DNA of 64,000 nucleotides from Pseudomonadota bacterium. GTDB taxonomy: Bacteria; Pseudomonadota; Gammaproteobacteria; Burkholderiales; Burkholderiaceae_C. Below are positions 10,806-39,969 of the stretch, piece after piece. Positions within the stretch are counted from its first letter, which is position 1; each line of letters opens with the position of its first letter. The notes below the pieces were generated by a model. That model searched no databases. It was not told the DNA's origin and saw only the letters and a program-made list of their open reading frames with translations. The translations under genes and the position numbers were made by a program. Where the stretch lies: NCBI GenBank assembly GCA_022566735.1, contig JADFIG010000003.1, positions 62,001-126,000 of the forward strand, written 5' to 3'.

Positions 10806-12350
10806 ATGAATTTCAGCAAACGCCTTTTGTTCTGTTTCGTTTTGCCCGCTGTCCTGTTTGTCTCCGCCATCGCCATGAGCGTGTGGGGGCTGGTGCAGAC
10901 CCAGCAGGAATTCGATCGCTACATCCGCACGGAACAGGCGGTCTCCGTGGGCCTGGCCGACATGTATGCGCAGGGCCTGCAAATGGGCCAGGCGCTGCGC
11001 AACATCGTGCTGGACCCGGGCAACCCCAAGGCCTACGACAACTTCAACAACGCGCAGGCCGCCTACGCCCGCACCTACGACGCCACGCTGAAGGCTGCCC
11101 GCGACACCGACATGGCGGCCGGCATCGGCGAGCTGGCCCCCCTGCGCGACAAGCTGAGCGGCAAACAGCAGGTGGTGCTGGACGCCGTCAAGAACGACCC
11201 GGCCAACGCCGCCCGCATCGTGACCAAGGAAGAAACGCCCGCCTGGCGTGGACTGCGCGAACCTTTGCTGGCGCAACTCAAGACCGCCCAGGCGCATGCC
11301 GCCCAGGCCAATGAGCAGGCCAGCAAGCTCGGGCGCCGCATGCTCACGATCAGCCTGACGCTGGCCGCCATCGCCCTGGGTGTCGCGGCCGTCCAGTTCA
11401 CCGTCATGCGCCGCACCGTGCAGACCGAAATCGGCGGGGACCCGGCGGTGGCGCGGGACATGCTGCGCCGCCTGGCCGAAGGCGACCTGACCTTCGACCT
11501 CACGTCCGACCTCGGCTCGCAGGGCCCCTTGCATGGCCTGATGGGCGAGTTGCAACGCACCCAACAGAACCTGCAGCAGCTGGTCGGCCAGGTCCGCCAG
11601 AGCACCGACAACATCCAGGGCGCCAGCACCGAGATCGCGTCGGGCAACCTGGACCTCAGCGCGCGCACCGAAACGGCTGCCAGCAGCCTGCAGCAGACCG
11701 CCAGCGCCATGGAGCAGCTGACCGACACGGTGCGCCAAAGCGCCGAGGCCGCCCGACAGGCCAACCAGCTGGCCTCCAGCGCGGCCGAAACCGCCCACCG
11801 CGGCGGCGACGTCGTCGCTCAGGTGGTTTCGACCATGGACGAGATCAACGCGTCGTCCAAGAAGATTTCCGACATCATCGGGGTGATCGACGGCATCGCC
11901 TTCCAGACCAACATCCTGGCGCTGAACGCCGCCGTGGAAGCGGCCCGCGCGGGCGAGCAAGGCCGGGGCTTTGCCGTCGTGGCAGGCGAGGTGCGCAGCC
12001 TGGCGCAGCGCTCGGCCGAGGCCGCGCGGGAAATCAAGGCCCTGATCGGCGCCAGCGTCGACCGCGTGGAGACGGGCGCCCGGCTGGTGGATGCGGCCGG
12101 CAGCACCATGACCGACATCGTCGAGTCGGTGAAGCGGGTCAGCGGCATCATCGGCGAGATCACCGCGGCCGCCTCGGAGCAATCGGACGGCATCGGGCAG
12201 GTCAACCAGGCGGTGACCCAGCTCGACCAGATGATCCAGCAGAACGCCGCCCTGGTGGAGGAATCCGCCGCCGCGGCCGCGTCGCTCAAGGGACAGGCGA
12301 CCACCCTGTCCGAGCTCATGGGCTCTTTCCGGCTGCGCAACCAGGCCTGA
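10806..12350 (+). CDS. Methyl-accepting chemotaxis protein
   Basis: A 514-residue inner-membrane receptor that signals to CheA/CheW. Membrane helix 1 is at about residues 8-29, a four-helix-bundle-like periplasmic domain follows to about 175, and helix 2 is at about 178-200. A HAMP region and the methylation helices come next. The conserved hairpin tip contains [20 protein letters not shown] near residue 364, which is diagnostic. Glutamine/glutamate-rich methylation stretches flank it ([17 protein letters not shown]). There is no C-terminal CheR-tethering pentapeptide. Ligand unknown. A FliA-type promoter lies upstream, which points to co-expression with flagella. Confidence 0.95.
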
Positions 12351-32186: not shown

Positions 32187-33560
32187 ATGAGCGAGGCACC
32201 CGCCCCCGAAAACGCACCAGCCCCCCACGACCTGCAGGACATCGCCCCGGAAGGCGGCCGCACCGAACCCGGCTTCGAGCACTTCTTCCGCGACCCCGAC
32301 AGCGCCCCCGAGCAGCCGCTCGCCTGGGCCTTGCAGCAACGCCTGGACCTGATCAACGCCTTGCGCGGCCTTTTCGGCGGAGCGCAGGCCGGCGTGCAGC
32401 TGCGCCTGTGGTGTTTCCTGGAGCTGGCCAGCCAGCCGCAGGCCCGCCTCTCGCGCGACGACGTCAACCGGCTCTGCCACATGGTGCTGCCGGACCCGCT
32501 GGACGGCGCCCTCAAGCGCCTGCGCGAGCTGGGGCTGCTGGCCTGGGATGCCACCGCGCAGGACTACCACCTGCCGCCCCTGGCCCAGCAGGTGCACGCG
32601 CTGCTGGCCCCGCTGAGCACCCCCGCGGCCGCCACGGAAGACGACGAGATGGCCGGCCTGCTGGCCCAGGTCGCCGGTGCGCAGCAGCTGGGCATCGTCA
32701 ACGCCAACCACCTCAAGCACCTGCACGCGCAGCTGGCCCGCCTGCACGACGAGTTCGCCGAGGCCATCGCCAGCGGCTCCGAAGCCCGCCTGCGCGCCGC
32801 CCAGCCGCGCTTCGACCGTGCCCTGCAACTGATCGACCGCGCCGGCCAGGCCCTGACCGCGCTGATCCGCGCCGAACACGACGACCCCCGCCTGGAGCGA
32901 GAAGCCCGCGCCATCGGCCAGGAACAAGCCCGCCTGCTGGCCATGGCCAGCCAGTTCACCCGCGCGCTGCAACAGGCCGACCGCCAGCGCGTGACGCTGG
33001 GCTCCACCGGCCTGACGACGTCTGACGTGCGCACCTGGTTGCAGTCCCACCCGGCCCTGCACGAGCTGCTGGGCGAGGCCATGAGCGTGCCGGTGCGCCC
33101 GGTCATGGTCAGCCCGCACGACCTCATCGACGTGGCCGAAGGCGAGTTCGAGCGCGACCGCCCGGCCCCCGGCAGCGCCACCGGCCTGCCCCCTCCGGCC
33201 GCCGCTGCCGAAGGCTCGCTCGACACCCTGAGCCTGCCGGCCGAGCTCGGCGCGCTGGTCCACCAGTTCACGCGCTGGAGCGAACGCGGCGAGGGCCCCC
33301 GTCCCTTGCGCGACGCCATCCTGGGGGGCCGCTTCGCCCAGGCCGCCTACCGCCTGCAGCTGATGCCGCTGGTGGGCGACGCCCAGGCCCAGACCCTCAA
33401 GGGCCTGACCGGCGACCTCGCCCGCACCCCCTGGCAGTGGCAGTTCGAGCCCCGCCACGAAGCCACCGACAACGAGGCCGTCGCCCGCATCAGCGCCGGC
33501 ACGGTCCAGCCCCTGACGCCGAACGCCCCGACCGAAGCCCCTCCGAGCGACCCGACATGA
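32187..33560 (+). CDS. Kleisin-like subunit of an SMC complex (MksF/JetA-like)
   Basis: A 457-residue protein, first gene of a three-gene operon with an SMC ATPase. Residues about 45-130 look like a winged helix (ALQQRLDLINALRGLF, DDVNRLCHMVLPDPLDGALK). A middle helical bundle (about 155-280) follows, with HAQLARLHDEFAEAIASGSE and AIGQEQARLLAMASQFTRAL. A final domain after a Pro/Ala linker ends near residue 457. This order (winged helix, helical bundle, C-terminal domain) is that of MukF/MksF/JetA. Sequence identity to named families is low to my eye. The stop overlaps the next start by 4 bp (ATGA). Role inferred from the operon. Confidence 0.6.
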   Translation: MSEAPAPENAPAPHDLQDIAPEGGRTEPGFEHFFRDPDSAPEQPLAWALQQRLDLINALRGLFGGAQAGVQLRLWCFLELASQPQARLSRDDVNRLCHMVLPDPLDGALKRLRELGLLAWDATAQDYHLPPLAQQVHALLAPLSTPAAATEDDEMAGLLAQVAGAQQLGIVNANHLKHLHAQLARLHDEFAEAIASGSEARLRAAQPRFDRALQLIDRAGQALTALIRAEHDDPRLEREARAIGQEQARLLAMASQFTRALQQADRQRVTLGSTGLTTSDVRTWLQSHPALHELLGEAMSVPVRPVMVSPHDLIDVAEGEFERDRPAPGSATGLPPPAAAAEGSLDTLSLPAELGALVHQFTRWSERGEGPRPLRDAILGGRFAQAAYRLQLMPLVGDAQAQTLKGLTGDLARTPWQWQFEPRHEATDNEAVARISAGTVQPLTPNAPTEAPPSDPT

Positions 33561-34300
33561 GCAAGCACCTGGACGATGCCGCCCTGCTGGCGGCCGAACT
33601 GCTGGCGCGGCGCTGGCTGCCCCGCCAGCACCCCAAGGTCAAGCGCGCCCTCATCGACGCCGACCTCTGGGCCGCCACGCAAGAGCGCCTGGCCCAGGTC
33701 GGCCTGCGCCTGATCGACAACCTCTACGCCGACCACGTCAGCGTGGCCCTGCTGCGCCCGGCCGAGACCGCCGTCTTCGGCGAGGCCGGCCTCGACAGCC
33801 ACAACAACATCGACCTGCCGCGCGATGCCGTCTCGCTGCTGGTGCTGCTGTGGGCGCTGATCGTCCTGCCCAAGCGCGAACGCCAGCAGGCCCGCGCCGC
33901 CAGGATCGACAAGGACGGCGACAGCGACTCCCAGAACGACATGTTCGGCAAGGACAAGCCCGTGCCGAGCGCCGCCAGCGTCAGCCCGCTGGTGTCCTAC
34001 CGTGCGCTGCTGGCCGACTTCGGCGTGCAGCTGGGCAAGAAGACGCGCCTGGACACCAACCTCAAGCGCCTGGAAAACCACGGCTTCATCGTGCGCAAGG
34101 GCGAGGACATCGCCGAAGGCCCGCTGCTCGATCTGCTGCTCGACTACGACGCGCTCGCGCCCCGCATCCTGCAAGGCGCCCTGGGCGATGTGCTGGCCCA
34201 GGCCAAGGAACTGCAGGCCAGCCTGCCGCTGGCGCTGACCCAGCCGCCGCTGGAAGACGCCGACGCCCCTGAAGACACCGACGACCAAGCCGAGGCCTGA
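33557..34300 (+). CDS. Winged-helix accessory subunit of an SMC complex (MksE/JetB-like)
   Basis: A 247-residue protein between the kleisin-like and SMC genes. The first half (QERLAQVGLRLIDNLYADHV, VALLRPAETAVF) and the second (SVSPLVSYRALLADFGVQLG, TRLDTNLKRLENHGFIVR) read as two winged helices. The helix VSLLVLLWALIVLP joins them. This is the layout of DUF4194/JetB and of MukE/MksE. An acidic linker (DKDGDSDSQND) and acidic tail are present. It overlaps the upstream gene by 4 bp and precedes the SMC gene by 6 bp. Function, regulating the kleisin, is inferred. Confidence 0.6.
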   Translation: MSKHLDDAALLAAELLARRWLPRQHPKVKRALIDADLWAATQERLAQVGLRLIDNLYADHVSVALLRPAETAVFGEAGLDSHNNIDLPRDAVSLLVLLWALIVLPKRERQQARAARIDKDGDSDSQNDMFGKDKPVPSAASVSPLVSYRALLADFGVQLGKKTRLDTNLKRLENHGFIVRKGEDIAEGPLLDLLLDYDALAPRILQGALGDVLAQAKELQASLPLALTQPPLEDADAPEDTDDQAEA

Positions 34301-34306
34301 TCTCCC

Positions 34307-37138
34307 ATGTTCCACCTGCAAAGCCTCGAACTGCTGCACTGGGATTACTGCCAGCGCCTGACCCTGCCGCTGGACGGCGCCATCATCACCGTGGCGGGCC
34401 CCAACGGCTCGGGCAAGACCACCTTGCTCGACGCCATGCGCACCCTGCTGGGCCTGGAATGCTCGGGCGGGCGCAACTACAAGACCTACGCGCGCCACGC
34501 CAACGCCGACAGCGCCTGGCTGCGCGCCACGGTCGACAACCGCCCGCGCAACCGCCAGTCGTCGAACCGGCCGTTCGCGCGCTGCCTGCTCTACGCGGAC
34601 GTGGTCACGCTGGCCTGCCGCATCGACCGCAACGGCGGCGACTGGACGCGCCGCTACACCATGGTCGAGGGCGACGTGTCCATCGAGCAGCTGATCGAAC
34701 GTGGCTCGGGCGGAACCAGTGACAGGGACTGGCTGGGCATCGACAACTGGCGCAAGCGCCTCGAAGGTGCCGGCCTGTCGCGCGCCATCGCCCGCGTGCT
34801 GGCGCTCGAACAGGGCCAGACCGACCGCCTGTGCGAGTACAGCCCCAAGGAGCTGCTCAAGCTCGTCTTCGACGTCTTCGGTGACCAGGACGTGCTCGAC
34901 CGCTACGACGAGGCCCGCAGCCACCAGAAGCAGCTGACGCAGGAAGTCGAAGCGGCGGAGCGCGAGCTCTCGCACGGCCGTGCCCAGCGCGCCGAGCTGG
35001 AAGTGCGCGTCAACAACCACCGCCAGTACGAGCTCAAGTGCCAGGAGCGCGAGCGCCTGGCCACCGAGGTCGTGCCGGTGCTGAGCAACCACGAGACGCG
35101 CAAGTCCCTGGCGACCAAGCTGCGCGAGCTGCACCGCCAGCGCCTGCAATCGACCGACGACCGCCGCGCCCACGGCCAGGTCAAGGCAGAGCTGCTGCAG
35201 CGCCTGCAGGACCAGACCACGGCCGCCGAACGCGTCGAAGCGCTCGAAGCCAAGGTGCGCACCGCCCGCCGCCTGCAGGAGGAAGCCCGCGACGCCGAGC
35301 GCCCCATGGAGCTCATCGTCAAGCGTGCCGACGAGCTGCAAGGCCTGGCCGTGGTCGAGGGCGATGCGGCCCAACTCACCACGCGCATCGCCGAGCTCAG
35401 CGAACACAAGCAGAAGCTGTCCGCCCAATGGCAGCGCCTGAAAGACCAGCGCGACGACGCGCAAAAAGCTTTCGACGCGCTCAAGGGCCAGCGCCAGGCC
35501 CCGCCGCCGCCCGACGTCACCCGCTTTCGCCGCACGCTCGATGAGGCCGGCATCGCCCACCACCTGATCGCCGACGTCATCGAGATCACCGACGAGCGCT
35601 GGCGTGCTGCCGCCGAAGGCGTGCTGCGTGGCAGCCGCTGGGTGGTGGTGCTGGCCCAGCCGGGCCAGGAGGCGCAAGCCATGGCCCTGGCCGAGCGCGA
35701 GCGCTACCGCCACTACATCGTGGCCGATGCCGAAGACGCGCCGGCCAGCCCCGACAAGCACAGCCTGCTGGCCGTGCTGAAAGCCTCCGCGCCCTTGCCG
35801 CGCTGGCTGCTGCGCCAGCTCGAACACATCCGCCGTGTGGACAGCACCGAGGCCGGCGTGAAGGCCGGTGGCGAGTGGATCACCCCCGAGGCCTACCACC
35901 GCGATGGCCGCGGCGGCCGCTCCGTCTGGGTCGACCCGAGCCAGCACCAGTTCGGCGCCTCGGCCGTGGCCACGCGCCGCACCTCCATCGAGAACCGCCT
36001 GGCCCAGCTCGACGAAGAAATGACGCGCATCGTGCGCGACCAGGCCTTCTTCGAGCGCCAGCTGCAGGACGCCCGCCAGGCCGCGCGAGGCTTCACCGCC
36101 GCCGCCGAGCTGGCAGAGCGCGAGGCCGAATTCAACGAGGCCCGCCGCCAGCTGCCCGTGCTCAAGCAGGCCCGCGTCGATGCCGGCGAGCGCTGGCAAG
36201 GCGCCGAAGCCGAGCTCAAGCGCGCCGTGGTCGAGCAGACCCACGCCCAGCACGCCTACCGCCAGGCCCAGGAACGCCTGGCCCACATCGAGCAGCGCAG
36301 CGCCCAGCACGAACGCGAATGGCAGGTCCGCTTCGACGACCTCGTCGCCCAGGCCGTGATGTCCCGCGAGGTCAAGCTCTCGCTGCCGGCCAGCTGGCGC
36401 CGCGCCGAACGCATCCGCGACATGCAGGGCCACTACGGCAACGCCACCCAGGCCCGCCTGCGCGCCGAGGCCGTGGACCGCGAGCTCAACGAAGGCCAGT
36501 GGGAAACCGATGGCACCGTCACCGAACAGCTCACGCTGATGAACGCCAACGTGCTGCGCCAGGAAGACGAGCTTGGCCAGCGCAAGGCCAGCAACTCGGC
36601 CGCGGCCATCGCCGTGGACAACGCCCGCGAGCGCTACACCGACGTGCTCAAGGTCACGGTGCGCCGCTACCGCAAGAACATCATCGAGCTGGGCCAGCTG
36701 GCCGGCGTCGATGTGCAGTGCGAGCTGCCCCACCTCGGCCAGGACGACGTCAGCCTGCGCCAGGCCGAGCTCAAGGTGCACTTCAACTTCGACGGCAAGG
36801 GCCACATCGGCCTCAACGACGGCGAAGCCTCGGGCGGCCAGCAGGTCATCAAGTCCCTGATCCTGCTGGTGGGCCTGATGAAGGACGACGAGACGCCCGG
36901 CGGCTTCGTCTTCATCGACGAACCCTTCGCCCACCTGGACGTGCGCAACATCCAGCTGGTCGGCCACTTCCTGCGCTCCACGCGCGCCCAGTACGTGCTG
37001 ACCACGCCGATCACGCACAACGTCGAGGTCTTCGAGCCCGCCGACGTCACCCTGGTGACGGCCAAGAAGCCCAAGGGCGCGCGCTGGGCCCCGCCCATCG
37101 GCGTGCTGCAGCGCCGCCCGCCTGCCGACGTCGTCTGA
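34307..37138 (+). CDS. Compact SMC-like ATPase (MksB/JetC-like)
   Basis: A 943-residue SMC-type protein. The N-terminal head has Walker A GPNGSGKTT (31-39). Two long coiled coils (about 190-400 and 560-800) flank a hinge-like segment (about 400-530) containing TRFRRTLDEAGIAHHLIADV and AAAEGVLRGSRWVVVL. The C-terminal head has the ABC signature in NDGEASGGQQVIKSL (about 837-850) and Walker B with D-loop GFVFIDEPFAHLD (about 866-878). It is much shorter than SMC (about 1150-1200) and MukB (about 1480) and closer to MksB or JetC. The catalytic Glu (IDEP) is kept. It should load on DNA with the two upstream products. No nuclease gene follows. Confidence 0.8.
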   Translation: MFHLQSLELLHWDYCQRLTLPLDGAIITVAGPNGSGKTTLLDAMRTLLGLECSGGRNYKTYARHANADSAWLRATVDNRPRNRQSSNRPFARCLLYADVVTLACRIDRNGGDWTRRYTMVEGDVSIEQLIERGSGGTSDRDWLGIDNWRKRLEGAGLSRAIARVLALEQGQTDRLCEYSPKELLKLVFDVFGDQDVLDRYDEARSHQKQLTQEVEAAERELSHGRAQRAELEVRVNNHRQYELKCQERERLATEVVPVLSNHETRKSLATKLRELHRQRLQSTDDRRAHGQVKAELLQRLQDQTTAAERVEALEAKVRTARRLQEEARDAERPMELIVKRADELQGLAVVEGDAAQLTTRIAELSEHKQKLSAQWQRLKDQRDDAQKAFDALKGQRQAPPPPDVTRFRRTLDEAGIAHHLIADVIEITDERWRAAAEGVLRGSRWVVVLAQPGQEAQAMALAERERYRHYIVADAEDAPASPDKHSLLAVLKASAPLPRWLLRQLEHIRRVDSTEAGVKAGGEWITPEAYHRDGRGGRSVWVDPSQHQFGASAVATRRTSIENRLAQLDEEMTRIVRDQAFFERQLQDARQAARGFTAAAELAEREAEFNEARRQLPVLKQARVDAGERWQGAEAELKRAVVEQTHAQHAYRQAQERLAHIEQRSAQHEREWQVRFDDLVAQAVMSREVKLSLPASWRRAERIRDMQGHYGNATQARLRAEAVDRELNEGQWETDGTVTEQLTLMNANVLRQEDELGQRKASNSAAAIAVDNARERYTDVLKVTVRRYRKNIIELGQLAGVDVQCELPHLGQDDVSLRQAELKVHFNFDGKGHIGLNDGEASGGQQVIKSLILLVGLMKDDETPGGFVFIDEPFAHLDVRNIQLVGHFLRSTRAQYVLTTPITHNVEVFEPADVTLVTAKKPKGARWAPPIGVLQRRPPADVV

Positions 37139-37204: not shown

Positions 37205-37222
37205 GCTCCCGAAGGAGCCCGT
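37201..37222. terminator. Bidirectional terminator stem between the SMC operon and the PEP-CTERM gene
   Basis: ACGGGCTCC (37201-37209) and GGAGCCCGT (37214-37222) form a perfect 9-bp stem with a CGAA tetraloop. It lies between convergent genes. There is no strong T-tract on either side, so it may depend on Rho or on the stem alone. Confidence 0.65.
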
Positions 37223-38109: not shown

Positions 38110-39969
38110 TCAGGCAGCCAGGCGCTGGGCCAGCTTGGCCTTGGTGGCGGGCATTTCGGCCGGCAGCTTGTGCGAGAGCTGGGTGAACAGTTCGTCGTGC
38201 AGCTTGAGCTCCTGCTCCCACGAGGCCTTGTCGATGCCGATGACGGACTGGAACTGCTCCTGGGTGAAATTCAGGCCGTTCCAGTTGATGTCGGCATAGG
38301 TGGGGCTCACGCCGAAAGCGTTTTCCACGCCGTGGGCCTTGCCTTGCAGGCGGCCGAGCATCCACTCCAGCACGCGCATGTTTTCGCTGTAGCCGGGCCA
38401 CACGAACTTGCCGTCGGCGCCCTTGCGGAACCAGTTCACGCAGTAGATCTTGGGCAGTTGGGCGCCCGAGGCGGCCAGCTTGCTGCCCAGGTTCAGCCAG
38501 TGCTGGAAGTAGTCGCTCATGTTGTAGCCCATGAAGGGCAGCATGGCGAAGGGGTCGCGGCGGACCACGCCCTGCGCGCCGAAGGCGGCGGCGGTGGTTT
38601 CCGAACCCATGGTGGCGGCCATGTAGACGCCTTCGGTCCAGTCACGGGCCTCGGTCACCAGCGGCACGGTGGTGGAGCGGCGGCCACCGAAGATGAAGGC
38701 GTCGATGGGCACGCCAGCGGGGTTGTCCCACTCGGGGTCGAGCGCCGGGTTGTTGGTGGCGGCCACGGTGAAGCGGGCATTGGGGTGGGCTGCCTTGGCG
38801 CCGGTTTCCTTGGCGATCTGGGGCGTCCAGTCCTTGCCTTGCCAGTCGACCAGGTGGGCGGGCAGCTCGTCGGTCATCGACTCCCACCACACGTCGCCGT
38901 CGTCGGTCAGGGCCACGTTCGTGAAGATCACGTCGCGGTCCAGCGACTTCATGCAGTTGAAGTTGGTCAGCGTGTTGGTGCCGGGGGCCACGCCGAAGTA
39001 GCCGGCTTCGGGGTTGATGGCGTAGAGCTTGCCGTCGGCCGCGGGCTTGATCCAGGCGATGTCGTCACCGATGGTGGTGACCTTCCAGCCCTTGTAGCCC
39101 TCGGGCGGGATCAGCATGGAGAAGTTGGTCTTGCCGCAGGCCGAGGGGAAGGCGGCAGCGACGTGGTACTTCTGGCCTTCGGGGTTGGTCACGCCCAGCA
39201 GCAGCATGTGCTCGGCCAGCCAGCCTTGCTCGCGGCCCATGGTGGAGGCGATGCGCAGGGCGAAGCACTTCTTGCCCAGCAACGCGTTGCCGCCATAGCC
39301 CGAGCCGTACGACCAGATTTCGCGGGTCGAGGGGTAGTGGACGATGTACTTGGTGTCCGGGTTGCACGGCCAGGCCACGTCCTGCTGACCTTCGGCCAGG
39401 GGCGCGCCCACGGTGTGCACGCAGGGCACGAACTCGCCATCGGTGCCCAGCACGTCGATCACGCCACGGCCCATGCGGGTCATGAGCTTCATGTTGACGG
39501 CGACGTAGGCGCTGTCGGAGAGCTCGACGCCGATGTGGGCGATGTTGGAGCCCAGCGGGCCCATGGAGAAGGGCACGACGTACAGGGTCCGGCCCTTCAT
39601 GGCGCCCTTGAACAGGGCTTGCTCACCGGTTTGCAGCTTGGCGCGCATCTCGGCGGGGTCGCACCAGTTGTTGGTGGGGCCGGCGTCTTCCTTGCGCTCG
39701 GAGCAGATGTAGGTGCGGTCTTCCACGCGGGCCACGTCGGACGGGTGGGTCCAGGCCAGGTAGGAGTTGGGGCGCAGCTCGGGGTTGAGCTTCTTGAAGG
39801 AGCCGGCGGCCACGAGCTGGGCGCACAGGCGGTCGTACTCCTCGGTGCTGCCATCGCACCAGACGATGTCCTTGGGCTGCAGCAGCGCGGCCATCTCGGC
39901 CACCCAGGCGATCAGCTTGGTGTTCTTGACGTAGGCAGGTGCGTTCACCTGAGCAGCGGTCGTCGACAT
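38110..39969 (-). CDS. pckG: Phosphoenolpyruvate carboxykinase (GTP)
   Basis: A 619-residue gluconeogenic enzyme converting oxaloacetate and GTP to PEP, CO2 and GDP. It is of the GTP class: the kinase-1a P-loop is [16 protein letters not shown] with the active-site cysteine of that class. Substrate residues are in [12 protein letters not shown] near 40, [15 protein letters not shown] near 90 and [15 protein letters not shown] near 220. The length is normal. GGAGC precedes the ATG. It is monocistronic with its own terminator and a 478-bp leader region with tandem repeats. Confidence 0.95.

Follow-up and report, generated by a model that had tools for sequence, protein, structure and literature searches.

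A kleisin-KITE-SMC operon from an Aquabacterium-like genome is probably a Wadjet branch that has shed its nuclease gene

The window studied here is a 64,000-nucleotide stretch of contig JADFIG010000003.1 from an Aquabacterium-like genome (its nearest named relatives are Aquabacterium), and it contains a three-gene SMC operon at 32187-37138 on the + strand. We found that in a set of related operons the smc gene is directly followed by a fourth gene, predicted to encode a divergent nuclease of the JetD/MksG type, and that this gene is missing at the window. The reading we lean toward is that a four-gene, Wadjet-like ancestor lost jetD and that the remaining trio was kept as a second, chromosome-organizing condensin. 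In the list of open reading frames (ORFs) the three genes run from kleisin to KITE to SMC and are closely packed, with an ATGA overlap joining the first two. Their positions, and the site that the fourth gene takes up in relatives, are as follows.

32187-33560, + strand: kleisin gene (MukF/JetA-like), ATG at 32187, stop codon ending at 33560, 457 residues, start choice uncertain
33557-34300, + strand: KITE subunit gene (JetB/DUF4194-like), ATG at 33557, stop codon ending at 34300, 247 residues
34307-37138, + strand: SMC ATPase gene (distant JetC relative), ATG at 34307, stop codon ending at 37138, 943 residues
37139-37246, unstranded: site of the jetD-like gene of relatives, here about 108 bases ahead of a PEP-CTERM gene

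Parts of this picture have precedent. A review (PMC10586767) presents as an open proposal that the MukBEF and MksBEF condensins stem from defense systems, describes P. aeruginosa MksBEF as lacking JetD and as having likely arisen by JetD loss, and gives a model of Wadjet in which JetD is thought to cut once a circle has been fully extruded. A second paper (PMC7485682) reports that P. aeruginosa MksBEF acts in chromosome organization and segregation beside Smc-ScpAB. Nuclease-less MksBEF is thus already known, and its origin by JetD loss has already been proposed. New, as far as our searches reach, are a JetC-related branch with a 940-residue SMC, its divergent JetD, and an apparent recurrent toggling of jetD at one locus; searches on Wadjet, MksBEF, MksG, and JetD, which covered few subscription papers, returned no published description of recurrent JetD loss.

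Results

Related operons carry a predicted JetD-type nuclease behind smc

We collected 105 loci, comprising the window, the best 80 of 449 relatives, and 24 further loci; removing four duplicates and one short row left 100 rows, from which an SMC tree was built by a quick method. In 25 of these 100 rows an ORF of about 400 residues comes immediately after smc, with which it shares the strand in every case (25/25). Its called start falls between 109 bases before and 15 bases after the end of smc, except in L053, L098, and L180, where the open frame of the ORF extends further back. The JetD1 model of PADLOC matched all five members scanned (E = 1.1e-10, 1.7e-14, 1.9e-16, 1.3e-9, and 1.4e-9), and the 19 aligned members share an invariant E266 and the motif D315-x-D317-P-x-G, acidic residues of the Toprim type. 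A structure model (predicted local distance difference test, pLDDT, 92.5) matched Topo VI-A (E = 2.1e-9), Spo11 (E = 2e-7), and P. aeruginosa JetD (E = 3.1e-7) in Foldseek. Because of the JetD1 matches, the acidic residues, and the resemblance in fold, we take the fourth gene of these relatives to be a divergent JetD/MksG-type nuclease gene, as predicted from sequence and model. The window's own genus is included: 4 of its 30 SMC-bearing genomes carry the jetD-like gene behind smc. The sequence-only reading of this DNA had defined the system by its missing nuclease and had named a JetD gene beside the same operon in other genomes as the finding that would speak against it; these 25 operons, those of the four genus genomes among them, contain just such a gene.

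At the window there is no JetD, as that reading had noted, and the assembly, which is 89% complete and within which all negatives from this genome hold, gave none by the JetD-like profile A2 or by PF09983 (JetD_C), and no match to DUF3375 or PF21980 (MksE). No remnant of jetD was found behind smc at the window by tblastn at E = 1e-3. In the other JetD-less loci tblastn yielded only two short smc-end matches, in L058 and L060, and these came from L051 as the query, a row in which the ORF is called from a start within smc. No clean scar is demonstrable at the window itself.

The earlier suggestion that the complex may use another nuclease found no backing next to the JetD-less operons. Neighboring genes of 97 loci were clustered within 4 kilobases, and among clusters of at least six loci the first 25 were judged by eye; an alternative nuclease beside the JetD-less operons was rejected, since the downstream ORFs and neighbor families show local synteny only. 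We also asked what else is encoded in those 26 genomes of the genus in which the SMC occurs without JetD. None has a JetD-like gene of the operon's own kind elsewhere, and 21 have no PF09983 match. The other five do have one: in G015 it is under the cut-off, in G011, G019, and G033 it is part of a Wadjet operon of four genes apart from the trio, and in G026, which by SMC is the window's closest relative, it belongs to a lone JetD-type ORF. Four-gene Wadjet operons (L199, L200, and L201, with JetCs of 1202-1234 residues) thus occur in three genus genomes that also have the JetD-less trio; PADLOC recognized JetA1, JetC1, and JetD1 in L201 and JetB1 in L200. L200 is from Aquabacterium commune, whose strain DSM 11901 is JetD-less in the trio, as is Roseateles depolymerans DSM 11813; Roseateles toxinivorans DSM 16998 has a JetD-bearing operon. 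In the 289-residue product of the G026 ORF the C-terminal domain of JetD1 is recognized (E = 9.1e-59), and no Wadjet SMC was present in the 18 kilobases read around it.

L198 8002-8868, - strand: JetD1 C-terminal ORF of G026, near gyrB (by eye) and restriction genes

jetD has come and gone repeatedly on the SMC tree

SMC tree of 100 rows labeled by JetD: 25 with and 75 without, 73 of the latter having at least 1500 bases downstream. The label is clustered, needing 14 changes against a mean of 22.5 for shuffled labels (none of 500 shuffles gave as few), and 13 of the changes are forced by well-supported branches. The window falls within a branch of 22 JetD-less rows, and the sister row, L027 (from the same genome as L040), has JetD.

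We compared 12 pairs at the jetD site. In four of them, all sister pairs, both flanks are common and just one member has jetD: L102/L060 (Herbaspirillum), L089/L088 (a Roseateles with a relative), L040/L036 (the window's genus), and L146/L182 (another order). Three pairs fit less sharply (L051/L056, L146/L185, and L180/L177), and five give no information on the site (L102/L058, L107/L104, L027/L176, L040/L172, and L040/L034).

Distances between JetDs are correlated with those between SMCs (Mantel r = 0.78, with 0 of 2000 permutations as high), the nearest neighbors by JetD and by SMC agree for 18 of 25 rows, and the JetDs of two genomes from another order are mutually nearest, as are their SMCs. 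Because the two sets of distances correlate, we favor a history in which jetD is an old gene lost many times. If JetD was ancestral and only ever lost, 23 to 28 losses are required. At one locus the gene departs from its SMC: the JetD of L102 (Herbaspirillum, 10826-12064) has 50-51% identity to the JetDs of relatives at an SMC identity of 0.86-0.89, whereas comparison pairs have JetDs 69-81% identical at SMC identities of 0.90-0.94 and 61% identical at 0.87. Being too divergent for its SMC, the L102 JetD has probably been replaced. We infer that loss was probably the main process behind the changes in jetD, with at least one likely replacement.

Mobile elements were searched as well. Of 72,556 plasmid records, three match, two of them above 50% identity, and none of the 157 and 46 pattern-matching stretches checked in viral contigs encodes a relative. 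A mobile-element origin was rejected, given the absence of relatives from the viral stretches and the few plasmid matches. The two plasmid matches above 50% are the Variovorax megaplasmids L202 (NZ_LR594690.1) and L203 (NZ_LR594663.1); each has one half of smc next to an IS1071 transposase, and behind the second of these halves comes a JetD-like ORF.

The SMC was found in 30 of 37 genus genomes, counting that of the window, and outside the genus in 3 of 24 genomes of the order, some matches being partial and at contig ends. Since it recurs in 33 of 61 genomes of the order, the SMC ORF is not a chance one. A class-wide search with profile A1 matched 156 of 377 genomes at E = 0.001; this tally is not used as a distribution, the matches listed, except those of the window's own genome and G346, being short ATPase or hinge stretches.

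The trio is kept intact without JetD

All three ATPase motifs are present in 74 of the 75 JetD-less SMCs, the exception being cut by a contig edge, and ORFs for both kleisin and KITE occur in 72 of the 75 loci, with the three misses cut by contig ends. Ratios of nonsynonymous to synonymous substitution rates (dN/dS) were computed pairwise by the Nei-Gojobori method, with no significance test. For the SMC, 13 of 14 JetD-less pairs lie at 0.04-0.19 and one at 0.38 (L103/L104); seven JetD-bearing pairs range from 0.04 to 0.15 (one with saturated dS) and three mixed pairs from 0.05 to 0.09. Kleisin and KITE values stay below 0.33 wherever one was obtained. We conclude that the trio is kept under purifying selection without JetD.

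The trio is an SMC complex nearer to Wadjet than to MksE-type MksBEF

The SMC matches SMC_N (PF02463, E = 4.3e-14) and, across a stretch rich in coiled coil, JetC1 of PADLOC (E = 1.7e-23), and its hinge region can be aligned with a JetC from one of the canonical Wadjets in the genus (E = 3.5e-10). The ATPase motifs are intact: GPNGSGKT for Walker A (residue 31), ASGGQ for the signature (841), and FVFIDEPF for Walker B (867). A Rad50/SbcC identity was rejected, SbcC_Walker_B reaching E = 0.016, under the cut-off.

The kleisin was modeled with AlphaFold on 46 homologs (alignment A4; mean pLDDT 82.8, predicted template-modeling score 0.45). Its six top Foldseek matches are all MukBEF or MukEF entries; the best, 9gm7_C (E = 9.5e-4, probability 0.95), is the sole match at E<=0.001, and template-modeling (TM) scores are low, as may be expectable for a flexible, elongated protein. 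The window kleisin has no relevant match in Pfam, NCBIfam, or PADLOC, with PF18982/DUF3375 absent among Pfam matches at E<=1, and the JetA models of PADLOC matched none of the 46 members; the same libraries do recognize a canonical JetA of the genus. On the strength of its model, the first-encoded subunit is a predicted MukF/JetA-like kleisin. The window KITE reaches DUF4194 (PF13835) at E = 0.008, under the curated cut-off, and has no PADLOC match. Among 46 aligned KITEs, DUF4194 was found in 38 at E<=0.1 (best 4.7e-6) and Pfam MksE (PF21980) in none at that threshold. Profiles of kleisin, KITE, and JetD-like proteins gave nothing useful against PDB sequences. Taken together, the trio is an SMC complex of the Muk/Wadjet kind (KITE, kleisin, and SMC), and the earlier description of a three-gene operon in F-E-B order with intact SMC motifs is borne out by the ORFs, DUF4194, Foldseek, and the SMC/JetC matches.

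Scored with the profile of the trio SMC, three JetCs from canonical Wadjets of the genus gave 27-43 bits, against -3 to 20 bits for five MksE-type SMCs; a sixth SMC of that type is absent from the matches listed. In the reverse direction, a profile of the six MksE-type SMCs did not match the window SMC at E<=10, and hhalign of the window SMC family with MksE-type SMCs gave E = 0.038 and 0.064. The MksE-type set came from PF21980 matches in 42 of 377 genomes of the class: of the ten best, whose surrounding regions were read, six have SMCs of 917-943 residues, and others have MukB-sized SMCs.

As judged by these profiles, the trio SMC is nearer to Wadjet JetC than to MksE-type SMCs, and because the scores favor the JetCs we place the trio nearer to Wadjet and call it MksBEF-like by layout. 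With type I Wadjet JetABCD (JetA1-JetD1 of PADLOC) it shares the gene order, a DUF4194 KITE, and a JetC-like hinge, and in its relatives smc is directly followed by the gene for a JetD-like nuclease; unlike Wadjet, its SMC has about 940 residues rather than the 1202-1234 of JetC in canonical Wadjets of the genus, its kleisin is unrecognized by JetA models, and JetD is missing at the window. The MksE-type MksBEF trios resemble it in three-gene layout and SMC length but have a PF21980 KITE, which the trio lacks, and SMCs that hardly match. Membership in the Pfam-MksE-type MksBEF family was rejected, with no PF21980 in 46 KITEs and SMCs barely matching. MukBEF is likened to the trio by the top structural matches of the kleisin and set apart by its SMC, 1472-1508 residues in MukB-sized operons against 943 here; Pfam MukB gave the window SMC 15.3 bits against a cut-off of 23. 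P. aeruginosa MksBEF is likewise reported to be a condensin trio without JetD beside Smc-ScpAB. The trio is thus probably part of Wadjet, a branch made MksBEF-like by the loss of its nuclease, and not an MksE-type member. The sequence-only reading had suspected a separate SMC branch, and the distant JetC likeness together with the dissimilar MksE-type SMCs agrees with it.

Among the MksE-type trios, L219, L220, L222, and L226 show no match to the JetD-like profile. In L221 and L225 (917-residue SMCs) the following ORF matches it weakly (E = 0.0007 and 0.002). Nuclease presence may vary in the MksE-type family too.

Discussion

On balance we favor descent from a kleisin-KITE-SMC-JetD operon of Wadjet-like make-up. 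In the window's lineage the Toprim nuclease gene behind smc would have been lost and the ATP-driven DNA motor retained. By homology, an SMC ATPase dimer bridged by the MukF-like kleisin, which would carry the DUF4194 KITEs, would form an ATP-driven ring that enlarges DNA loops. Deprived of JetD, this motor would have no cutter, and the remaining complex would most likely extrude or bridge DNA loops and aid chromosome organization or segregation next to Smc-ScpAB. Since the same genome encodes a canonical Smc (1064 bits), ScpA, and ScpB, the trio is its second SMC system. We propose this chromosomal role by analogy with P. aeruginosa MksBEF.

Several observations weigh against this reading. For the fourth gene, a canonical JetD of the genus shows comparable motifs in the aligned places but aligns weakly by hhalign (E = 0.006), no PDB chain was reached with the JetD-like profile, and the one member scanned against Pfam had no relevant match. 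The small subunits are distant from their canonical Wadjet counterparts in the genus, no alignment being obtained between kleisin and JetA and a weak one between KITE and JetB (E = 0.022). The probable replacement in L102 adds a process besides loss, PF09983 matches occur elsewhere in five JetD-less genus genomes, and the operon was not found in 7 of 37 genus genomes. In five Aquabacterium-like loci (L030, L031, L171, L172, and L175), KITE and SMC are parted by 2-3 kilobases of unrelated sequence. Finally, pairs that include the window lie at the high end of dN/dS for the genus (SMC 0.14-0.19, kleisin 0.27-0.29, KITE 0.25-0.30), and constraint may be weaker in the window's own lineage.

We consider it unlikely that the trio is still an anti-plasmid system that recruits a nuclease encoded elsewhere. 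Its Wadjet-like nature fits such a role, as do the five genomes with PF09983 matches, three of them in separate Wadjet operons and one in the lone ORF of G026; the smc halves beside IS1071, which make up the plasmid matches above 50% identity, could also indicate that plasmids do not tolerate an intact copy. Yet the other 21 of 26 genomes lack PF09983, not one of the 26 has the operon's own kind of JetD elsewhere, the window assembly matches neither PF09983 nor DUF3375, and among the neighbor clusters judged by eye no gene family recurs beside JetD-less operons beyond local synteny. Less probable again is an ancestral condensin behind whose smc jetD was gained repeatedly. The JetD-less majority of 75 rows, the 23 to 28 losses of a loss-only history compared with 14 changes in a mixed one, and the newly acquired look of the L102 JetD all speak for gain, but the agreement of JetD with SMC distances, the mutual nearness of the two JetDs from another order, the uniform position and strand of the gene in 25 of 25 rows, and the lack of any confirmed JetD-like gene in viral contigs speak for descent with the operon. 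That the trio is in decay, left over from a defense system, as its patchy presence, the split operons, and the somewhat raised dN/dS of the window pairs might suggest, seems very improbable: dN/dS is below 0.4 for all three genes in every pair with a value, and the motifs and partner subunits are intact in nearly all JetD-less loci (74 and 72 of 75).

The loss of jetD from a Wadjet-like ancestor, with retention of the trio, may also have a wider form, which we offer tentatively as a possibility. A single orthologous operon may alternate between an armed, plasmid-cutting Wadjet and a disarmed, chromosome-organizing condensin, having switched at least 13 times in Burkholderiales and one further order, mostly by loss of a single gene, and having arrived at the MksBEF-like state by a path separate from that of the Pfam-MksE-type trios. 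If so, the step from defense SMC to housekeeping condensin would be easy and recurrent. Nature offers closely related operons here that differ in the nuclease at a single site; these make the idea that condensins come from defense systems directly testable, and they raise the question of whether the same SMC complex cuts plasmids with JetD and folds chromosomes without it. PADLOC recognizes the branch only in part, with no match for JetA or the window KITE and partial matches for JetC and JetD.

Genomic setting

A PfkB gene lies upstream of the operon and a PEP-CTERM gene downstream (both named by eye), as the sequence-only reading had stated. The terminator that it placed downstream is unsupported: a scan detected nothing terminator-like at that spot, nor any excess of such sites in the region, and the sequence near 37206 has a GC-rich inverted repeat without a T run. 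Further downstream, a phosphoenolpyruvate carboxykinase gene occupies 38110-39969 of the window on the - strand, and such a gene is found within 8 kilobases on the same side in 16 of the 105 loci (the window and one duplicate counted). From this neighborhood, the location of the trio seems to be stable across much of the genus.

The inserts between KITE and SMC in the five Aquabacterium-like loci encode, by eye, a putative DAPG-hydrolase-like protein, a TetR-type regulator, and a pectin-acetylesterase-like protein. In two distant relatives, L021 and L022, obgE is found upstream of the JetD-less trio; in L021 proB comes next behind the trio, and in L022 a GNAT acetyltransferase ORF separates KITE from SMC (names by eye).

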